In this document: positions 62,475-64,000 of the stretch, piece after piece
How positions within the stretch are numbered: position 1 is the stretch's first letter
Layout of the letters: each line of letters starts with the position of its first letter
NCBI GenBank assembly: GCA_944322565.1
Contig: CALUPG010000009.1
Span: forward strand, 54,336-118,335
DNA: 64,000 bases
Direction of reading: 5' to 3'
Origin: an uncultured Bacteroidales bacterium
GTDB taxonomy: Bacteria; Bacteroidota; Bacteroidia; Bacteroidales; UBA932
The notes under the pieces: generated by a model
Told to the model about the DNA's origin: nothing
Seen by the model: the letters and a program-made list of their open reading frames with translations, nothing else
Databases searched by the model: none
Position numbers and translations under genes: made by a program

Positions 62475-62705
62475 TTATATTTCCGAGGCTGCCTGCCTCA
62501 GCCTGTCCGCAAGGTCACACAGGGCACCCTTGAACAGTTCCCGCTCCTCCGGCGTGAAATCGGTTTCCTTTCCGTTGCCGTCAATCCCGTCTAGTTTATG
62601 ATAGAGCCAGCCGGAGGACTTGCCAAAGTAGCGACGGGCCAGTCTTGCTATATTGATGTCAAGTAGCAATTCAATATATTTCTGCTTGATTTCCTTTGAT
62701 TTCAT
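62475..62705 (-). CDS. DUF5053-like small phage protein
   Basis: The 76-residue protein (MKSKEIKQKYIELLLDINIA, then RYFGKSSGWLYHKLDGI) resembles DUF5053 proteins of Bacteroidales mobile elements. A Trp-rich centre may be a helix-turn-helix. It closes the small-gene cluster before the terminator. Confidence 0.7.
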   Translation of the reverse strand: MKSKEIKQKYIELLLDINIARLARRYFGKSSGWLYHKLDGIDGNGKETDFTPEERELFKGALCDLADRLRQAASEI

Positions 62706-62947: not shown

Positions 62948-63217
62948 TTACTTGTGCAAATTATCAGATTTTGGCAGTTGCCGGTACTCCATCTCCAGGT
63001 CAAAGAGCATCTTGTCGGCGATGAGGCGGGCGAGGCCGGACTCCAGGAGACCGAACCCCTCGCTCACCTTGTCTACTGTCTCTATGTTCTCGTCATAGAA
63101 CTGCCCGCCAGACGAGGACTCATCCCAGCTGTTGAACAGTTCGTAGGCCCTGTGCAGGCTGGAGAGCACTTCCGTCAGGCGGGAGTCCGCCTGGGCCGGT
63201 ATCATCTTCTCTTCCAT
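62948..63217 (-). CDS. Small phage protein of unknown function
   Basis: The start at 63217 follows a GGGAGG Shine-Dalgarno-like site, which is rare in this genome, and is preferred over a frame start at 63385. The 89 residues are acidic and helical (YELFNSWDESSSGG). It lies 14 bp after the 107-residue gene, so the two are co-transcribed. Confidence 0.6.
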   Translation of the reverse strand: MEEKMIPAQADSRLTEVLSSLHRAYELFNSWDESSSGGQFYDENIETVDKVSEGFGLLESGLARLIADKMLFDLEMEYRQLPKSDNLHK

Positions 63218-63231
63218 GGCGCACCTCCCGT

Positions 63232-63555
63232 CTATTCGTTGGCCGCCTTGCGGAACCCTGCCGGGCGGATGGCATTCATCTCCCTCTCTGCCACCCTCGA
63301 GGCTATCTGCAGCATCTGACGGTGCTTCAGGTCGGAGAGTTGGCGGTACATCAGGCGGTTCATGGTGATGAGCATCCGGCGGCATTCCTCCAGCGCCTGG
63401 GGATCAACGGGGACTCCCGTCTCGTCGGCGGCGGTGCGGAAGACATCAAATGCGACGGAGAGGCTGAGGGTCTCGTCGATGAGCGCCTTGACGGCGGTCT
63501 TGCATCTCACCAGCCCCTTCAGGCTGGTGGTGGCGGTGTTGTGTTGGTAAGGCAT
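63232..63555 (-). CDS. Phage protein of unknown function with structured leader
   Basis: The 107-residue protein is helical (KALIDETLSLSVAFDVFRTA; RRMLITMNRLMYRQLSDLKHRQMLQIA). The 5' coding bases form the right arm of a 16-bp inverted repeat, so the leader can cover its start codon. No family is recognised. Confidence 0.6.
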   Translation of the reverse strand: MPYQHNTATTSLKGLVRCKTAVKALIDETLSLSVAFDVFRTAADETGVPVDPQALEECRRMLITMNRLMYRQLSDLKHRQMLQIASRVAEREMNAIRPAGFRKAANE

Positions 63556-63737
63556 ATAACAACATATTATGATGAAAGCCCTGCACTTAGGTGGGCCTTA
63601 CCAACACAACATCTCTGCCGTATTTGCTCCGCCGGTTTCCCGGGCGGATTCCACCTTATGCAGGGCAGTCATCTATTTCTTTCGTGAAAATACACCACGG
63701 CAGAAAAGATAGACAAGTGATACAGTATTGGTAAGGC
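63538..63737 (-). ncRNA. Leader with mutually exclusive pairing segments
   Basis: In transcript order: GCCTTACCAA at 63737-63728, a segment with GATGA, GCCCTGCA and AGGTGG at 63673-63651, GTTGTGTTGGTAAGGC at 63610-63595, its complement with CCACCT, TGCAGGGC and TCATC at 63594-63571, then the start codon segment GCCTTACCAACACAAC at 63553-63538. The third can pair with the first or with the start segment; the second with the fourth. It could be a riboregulator or a set of operators. Confidence 0.55.
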
Positions 63738-63742
63738 AATAG

Positions 63743-63773
63743 CAAAGGTAGGAAAAGTTTTGCGATATGCAAA
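63743..63773 (-). promoter_or_regulatory. Promoter of the 63232-63555 gene
   Basis: On the minus strand TTTG (63773-63770), 19 bp, TACCTTTG (63750-63743). Transcription should start near 63737, so the RNA begins with the GCCTTACCAA segment. Confidence 0.65.
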
Positions 63774-63859: not shown

Positions 63860-64000
63860 TCAGAGGGACACCTTGCCGACACCGACGACTTCAAGGTTCA
63901 CCGGAATGTCGAGTGCCCGGAAGATCTTCGACACGGAAGACAGGGTGATGCTCTTGCCGTTCTCAAAGCGGGAAATCTGAGCCTTCTTCACCCCGATCCG
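63860..64000 (-). CDS. XRE-family helix-turn-helix regulator, 3' part only
   Basis: Translation of the minus strand to the window edge gives 46 residues, RIGVKKAQISRFENGKSITL then SSVSKIFRALDIPVNL, the second half of an XRE helix-turn-helix with the recognition helix QISRFENGKS. The 5' end is outside the window. It may be the element's repressor or an antitoxin; the partner is not visible. The stop is followed by a terminator. Confidence 0.75.
   Translation of the reverse strand, partial: RIGVKKAQISRFENGKSITLSSVSKIFRALDIPVNLEVVGVGKVSL

Follow-up and report, generated by a model that had tools for sequence, protein, structure and literature searches.

A putative phage leader RNA of Bacteroidales carries a guide matched to its own 5' end and to an adjoining start codon

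Ahead of a small gene on the minus strand of a 64,000-nucleotide stretch of DNA from an uncultured Bacteroidales bacterium (the window; contig CALUPG010000009.1) lies a leader in which one segment can pair either with the 5' end of the RNA or with the start of the gene. The locus raises the question of what kind of element this is, and whether its guide acts within its own transcript or on others as well. From comparison of related copies, we consider it probable (about 0.7) that the leader is a divergent C4/c4-2-like phage antisense RNA whose guide would block translation of the adjoining gene.

Layout of the leader, its gene and its copies

The whole element copy occupies window positions 63537-63750 on the minus strand (Table 1). 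Its promoter contains a CTTTGC that is invariant in all 22 copies of alignment A5, and TACCTTTG at 63750-63743 is what we take to be a Bacteroidetes-type -7 box. The first-pass annotation had described a 16-bp inverted repeat reaching the G of the ATG, a 10-base copy of one arm at the predicted transcript start and an interleaved pair. The repeat proved to be 17 nt long and perfect (63595-63611 with 63537-63553), its second arm opening at the G of the ATG at 63555-63553. The 10-base copy of the target arm, GCCTTACCAA, does lie at 63737-63728, immediately 3' of the -7 box, and the interleaved pair is the crossing P1 stem (63666-63651 with 63594-63578), of which the repeat search found the outer part (15 nt, 87%). 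The internal loop between the outer and inner parts of P1 resembles the 11-nt GAAA-tetraloop receptor, and the GAAA of the P2 loop is invariant in the copy alignment. The guide lies linear after the pseudoknot strand, without a P3 hairpin, and the T-run directly after P1 is short in the element copies (2-4, median 3). When the minus-strand RNA was folded, as had been suggested, positions 63737-63480 (258 nt) gave -101.1 kcal/mol; shuffles averaged -73.9 (z = -5.5), and none of 200 was as low. The 10-mer TTGGTAAGGC occurs four times in the genome, three times in the window element and once in a truncated duplicate; its backward control occurs seven times, so it is the placement that is unusual and the count alone is ordinary.

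Table 1. Coordinates of the leader and of adjoining genes in the window
Feature	Position	Strand	Basis
XRE/HTH gene, 3' end; context outside the element	63860..64000	-	ORF list
Promoter: TTTG 63773-63770, 19 nt, TACCTTTG 63750-63743	63743..63773	-	sequence; predicted
5' segment GCCTTACCAATA, wobble-weakened target copy at predicted RNA 5' end	63726..63737	-	
Pseudoknot strand CTGCCGT, partner 63621-63615	63697..63703	-	pairing in 22 copies
P1 outer stem, 5' strand GCCCTGCA, partner 63585-63578	63659..63666	-	pairing in 22 copies
P1 inner stem, 5' strand AGGTGG, partner 63594-63589	63651..63656	-	pairing in copies
P2 hairpin CCGCC...GAAA...GGCGG	63629..63647	-	covariation in 22 copies
Pseudoknot strand ACGGCAG	63615..63621	-	pairing in 22 copies
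Guide TGTTGTGTTGGTAAGGC, directly abutting the P1 3' strand	63595..63611	-	17-pair helix with target
P1 3' strands CCACCT and TGCAGGGC, then TTTCATCA	63578..63594	-	sequence, pairing
Target GCCTTACCAACACAACA, G of ATG to codon 6	63537..63553	-	perfect guide complement
Regulated ORF, 107 aa, type B	63232..63555	-	13 homologs; without Pfam match
Second small ORF, 89 aa, start picked by eye in longer frame	62948..63217	-	without Pfam match

The ORFs downstream of the element belong to a few gene types. The type B protein encoded in the window is predicted to form a two-helix hairpin (AlphaFold2 mean pLDDT 83.5, with residues 1-8 at low confidence), and a structure search with this model returned nothing at E 0.001. 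For the type A protein an alpha-beta fold is predicted, with weak HPF/dsRBD-like structure matches, none of them at E 0.001. Homologs of the downstream proteins have conserved bodies and vary at residues 2-6. The 89-aa ORF possibly lies on the same transcript as the 107-aa ORF. Between the XRE gene and the leader sits a terminator-like hairpin (63819-63798; shuffles gave 0.7 such sites). A homolog of this XRE gene in locus L006 matches HTH_3 in Pfam, and the near-identical XRE genes likely belong to a toxin-antitoxin pair. One of them follows a copy of the element (L006 2057-2707) and the other precedes the copy in the window (63860-64000), as if shuffled together. Just downstream in the window a DUF5053 protein is encoded (62475-62705; Pfam 96 bits), and a small ORF that we named HicA-like by eye follows the type A gene of copy G230d (L294, after 1900).

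Searched as DNA against 101 genomes of the genus, the leader matched five, and a single contig can hold as many as four copies; the match in G092 covers the promoter only. The covariance model R1 matched 11 of 400 genomes of the genus, the match in G370 being a c4-2 RNA, and in a family sample it matched 6 of 299 genomes, all in the window's genus, one of 25 genera. One IMG/VR contig (L028) carries the element. Our comparison set consists of 22 intact copies: 21 from 10 genomes (four each in G100 and G230, three each in G000 and G052, two in G050 and one each in G198, G291, G300, G343 and G366) and one from the viral contig. Left out were G092, G370 and two truncated copies (G000:C18:13.4 kb and G291:C23). 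Fourteen copies were found by DNA similarity or patterns, independently of guide:target pairing; the other eight were found with R1, which rewards the guide:target helix, and are therefore less independent evidence. The copies are related, and counts over them are not counts of independent events. A loose contig pattern returned at least 119 stretches, two of which (L077, L095) scored strongly with the element HMM. Viral scans gave one contig with a strict pattern, six with a second and at least 120 with a loose one; the HMM had no match at E 1 in 124 viral loci (L148-L271), and L028 is the only viral contig used. The phage collection, searched at the DNA level, contained no match, and among the matches listed in a literature search of openly licensed papers there was no account of the element.

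Pairing and covariation of the three segments

Each copy has three matched segments, namely the predicted RNA 5' end, a guide of 16-17 nt and a target, and the target opens at the G of an ATG in all 22 copies. The 22 copies hold 21 different guide sets, one being shared by G052a and G230b. Over 16 nt, guide and target form 297 Watson-Crick pairs, 4 G.U pairs and 10 mismatches in the 22 copies, with all 10 mismatches coming from G052a and G230b, where there is a 1-nt length difference. The 5' segment and the guide, compared over 12 nt, form 235 Watson-Crick and 24 G.U pairs with 5 mismatches; the window copy contributes 11 Watson-Crick pairs and one G.U. At positions 3-12, with Watson-Crick and G.U pairs counted, a copy's own segments are 97-98% paired, against about 48% for the segments of other copies. 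In the 14 copies found independently of this pairing, the 17-pair guide:target helix has 97.9% of cells paired and 11 of its 17 pairs changed on both sides, the whole-structure measures were reached by 0 of 500 shuffles, and sliding the helix partner lowered pairing from 95.8% to 31-43%. That the middle segment can pair with either the 5' end or the start region, each excluding the other, and that P1 crosses these pairings, had been put forward from the window alone and is supported by this covariation. A comparison of homologous leaders had also been proposed, looking for leaders that change one arm and keep the other; in the copies the arms change together.

In 22 copies, P1 outer is paired in 100% of cells with 2 of 8 pairs changed on both sides, P2 in 81.8% with 5 of 5, and the pseudoknot in 94.8% with 2 of 7. 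P1 inner is paired in 92.9% of cells in the 14 copies and in 98.1% for five of its six pairs in 22 copies. For P1, P2 and the CTGCCG/CGGCAG pseudoknot together, 11 of 30 pairs changed on both sides in the 22 copies, a value as high as which was given by 0 of 500 shuffles; one of five structure measures in the 22 copies (further pair types) was reached by 35 of 500.

The two helices that share the guide differ in strength and in their deviations. Guide:target is stronger than guide:5' segment in all 22 copies, with means of -22.3 and -18.3 kcal/mol. Across positions 3-12 (220 in all), the 5' segment deviates from perfect complementarity at 29 (C>T 20, A>G 4, others 5), and 24 of these 29 deviations keep the pairing as G.U (p = 6e-10 against all substitutions); measured against transitions only, the excess has p = 0.035, base composition accounting for much of it. 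Deviations that are mostly G.U point to RNA rather than DNA. The guide:target helix is nearly without G.U, a pattern that DNA-level copying between inverted repeats could give as well. Guide:target pairing between units of one genome spans -2.8 to -14.0 kcal/mol, whereas own pairs lie at -19.5 to -24.6; of 460 cross pairs in the full set, 4 match the weakest own pair in strength. Two truncated copies that lack the promoter have 3-4 of 16 guide:target positions mismatched (by eye), as expected if selection on a working transcript keeps the pairing.

The window copy and its relative in G291 (L077/L272) are 96.8% identical over 3.9 kb. Their guides differ at 5 of 14 positions, their targets at 5 of 16 and their 5' segments at 12 of 18, against 3 of 111 and 0 of 41 in the stretches between. 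For this pair, chosen after looking, Fisher's test of guide and target against promoter and intervening stretches gives p = 1e-6, and it is the clearest case of re-keying among 11 pairs compared. Guide and flank diverge alike between the window copy and G100a (guide 2/14, flank 17/111) and are common to both G052a and G230b; between G052a and G100b the target is unchanged (0/16) despite a flank that differs at 18 of 115 positions. So guides have been re-keyed in some lineages and kept in others.

Relation to C4, c4-2 and P4 CI RNAs

By anatomy the element resembles C4 and P4 CI RNAs; by the Rfam criterion it is not a member of c4-2 (RF02944, clan CL00128), the gathering cut-off of 41 bits being reached by none of the 22 copies. 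The window copy has no match to the c4-2 model to E 10 and the viral copy on L028 none to E 1, and in 7 of the 20 other copies the model has a match that coincides with the element (scores up to 38.8 bits; E 1e-4 to 1.9). C4 itself (RF01695), which we take to belong to the same clan, was never listed as best match at the element, where only the best match of the clan is shown. No Rfam riboswitch family matched at the element in the window or in other copies. MicroRNA and viral hairpin families that came up against the window inverted repeat scored far below cut-off and were set aside as chance matches.

The features shared with c4-2 are a P1 with inner and outer parts and an internal loop, a GAAA-type P2, an antisense segment after P2, and the closing of the RNA by P1. 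The P3 hairpin, which presents the guide in c4-2, is absent; in its place the element has an unhairpinned guide of 16-17 nt and a pseudoknot to an extra 5' domain. The complementary segments also differ in emphasis, the best target of the element being the start codon region, whereas in c4-2 the upstream complement is usually longer (11 of 17 loci). The longest T-run near the end of P1 is 3-7 in c4-2 by a looser measure, compared with 2-4 after P1 in the element.

For the c4-2 side of this comparison we used 17 loci. Among 393 genomes of the order searched for c4-2, 15 had matches, 14 of them above the cut-off, and this search contributed 16 loci; the other is L282, the G370 locus, a true c4-2 RNA that scores 75.5 bits to c4-2 and 27.4 to R1. 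For the L282 guide, CTTTGAG, there is one complementary stretch upstream and another immediately ahead of the ATG. A complement of the P3 region of at least 7 nt is found within 80 nt upstream in 12 of the 17 loci (between loci, 17 of 272) and shortly before a downstream start codon in 6 of 17 (between loci, 14 of 272); one of these six, L311, looks like an AT-rich chance match. These counts suggest that the three-part layout extends to many c4-2 loci and its downstream part to fewer. The upstream complement is longer in 11 loci, equal in 4 and shorter in 1, and one locus has neither. Run on the 17 loci, R1 gave a convincing match only for L282; those in L309 and L301 lie on the opposite strand or off the motif and were rejected. 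By eye, the upstream guide complement closely precedes an ATG in several of L296-L303, L307 and L311, as if a short leader ORF began there and its start were masked by the c4-2 antisense RNA as well. L309 appears by eye to hold two c4-2-like elements head to tail within about 430 bases.

An antisense segment complementary to flanking leader segments, as in C4 and P4 CI, is present in every one of the 22 copies, with a 1-nt length difference from the target in two. As described in PMC5320573, phages P1 and P7 obtain their C4 RNA by cleavage of a longer transcript; the b' loop of this RNA overlaps ribosome sites in part, and changing 4 nt in loop and target is enough to set P1 and P7 apart. That RNA and ours are alike as phage leader-derived antisense RNAs, the C4 described there having P1, P2 and P3; the guide of the element is longer and the downstream genes differ. 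The CI RNA of satellite phage P4, as described in PMC4825925, pairs with seqA upstream and seqC downstream and causes premature transcription termination. A single antisense segment with complements upstream and downstream is common to both systems; in P4 the outcome is termination, whereas the downstream complement of the element, as read from its sequence, covers a start codon. The C4-like sRNAs of Acinetobacter baumannii are likewise multicopy, with many copies per genome and a variable specificity loop in 21 sequences; their targets were not established in PMC5320573, whereas each copy of the element carries a matched target.

Proposed mechanism, rival readings and phage setting

The first-pass annotation read the locus as a two- or three-state leader. 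The switch layout stands; in place of a stand-alone leader we see one of many copies of a C4/c4-2-like antisense element, nearly all of which have private guides. On the antisense reading, the 5' segment would pair with the guide first, during transcription, serving as a cap or decoy (or as a second target), until the perfect target displaced it. The guide would then hide the start region in the same transcript and lower translation. If the leader were cut or ended after P1, the guide could act on further transcripts that share the target, among them transcripts of an incoming phage; the short T-run after P1 makes the release of a short RNA by termination less likely. Private guides would keep several units in one cell from silencing each other and could give the phage a changeable specificity, as is reported for the C4 RNAs of P1 and P7 (PMC5320573). 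A more specific proposal, which we advance only tentatively, is that the units work as orthogonal RNA gates: each guide would be capped by its own wobble-weakened 5' end, displaced only by a perfect 16-17-nt target, so that up to four units per genome could operate without cross-talk, with all three segments re-keyed together for a new immunity or regulatory specificity.

To our knowledge, C4 and P4 CI are among the few antisense-RNA systems of phage immunity. In the Bacteroidales variant described here such units, each with its matched guide, are numerous and reach four on a single contig; in one or more pairs of near-identical phages all three segments have changed in step. Two testable questions follow: by what route the three distant RNA segments come to change in concert, and whether phages of the genus fall into immunity groups set by their RNA guides. 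As found in nature, the matched guide sets would already amount to a collection of specific translation switches.

A purely cis-acting reading, which we find somewhat doubtful, takes the leader as a folding switch or timer in which the 5' end holds the guide early and the start region holds it later, giving a pulse of translation with no antisense action in trans. All three segments do lie within one predicted transcript, the early partner is the weaker one in 22 of 22 copies and the T-run after P1 is short, all of which fit such a timer. The differing units within one genome are left unexplained by a cis switch alone, however, as a shared guide would do, and so is the resemblance to c4-2, whose clan is named for antisense RNAs. 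A feature acting in DNA, as operators for the XRE repressor or as inverted repeats for recombination or template switching, is very unlikely. The inverted repeat is perfect, an XRE gene lies upstream, a truncated duplicate is present at an apparent prophage-host boundary and the guide:target match has hardly any G.U; but 21 different sequences in 22 copies make no fixed operator, P1, P2 and the pseudoknot have changed on both sides, and the truncated, promoterless copies carry mismatches between guide and target. The operator idea, raised as an alternative in the annotation, fares poorly for the further reason that the deviations of the 5' copy, 24 of 29 compatible with G.U, are sensible for RNA and not for a DNA operator.

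Still less likely is a ribozyme or an RNA-guided mobile element whose guide finds an insertion or cleavage site. The GAAA hairpin with its receptor-like loop, the multiple copies, a guide matched on both sides and the integrase-like genes seen by eye beside at least two copies would suit it. Against it, the promoter side is conserved in all copies, the ORF side is drawn from a few gene types rather than arbitrary targets, and the ORF lists, inspected by eye, show nothing integrase-like beside other copies. That the N-terminal codons are conserved for the protein, the complement being incidental or due to chance, has a negligible probability: the downstream proteins are conserved, yet it is residues 2-6 that vary while much of the rest is kept, residues 1-8 are predicted at low confidence, and the guide, which lies outside the gene, changes along with the N-terminal codons, which refutes this reading as stated.

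The regions that hold the element are likely prophages, on the basis of integrase and S49 peptidase Pfam matches in the window, the IMG/VR record and an inspection of gene order by eye; none of the genes tested that look like terminase, capsid or tail genes had a Pfam match. Within phage regions the copies are not confined to one place, and some, judged by eye, sit among late genes. Integrase-like genes, again named by eye, adjoin copies G000b (L026 1-970) and G050a (L024 3478-4380). The last 77 bases of the window (63924-64000), at the end of contig C9, are identical to G000:C18:1-77, and the prophage probably continues from C9 into C18, where its far end seems to lie at C18:13540, beside host-like genes. 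Truncated promoterless copies with a type B gene are found at the apparent prophage-host boundary in G000:C18:13417-13540 (L025) and in G291:C23 (L095 7425-7548). At the G291 site an integrase region and a small truncated piece seem to lie less than 700 bases apart, as if the remaining prophage were absent.
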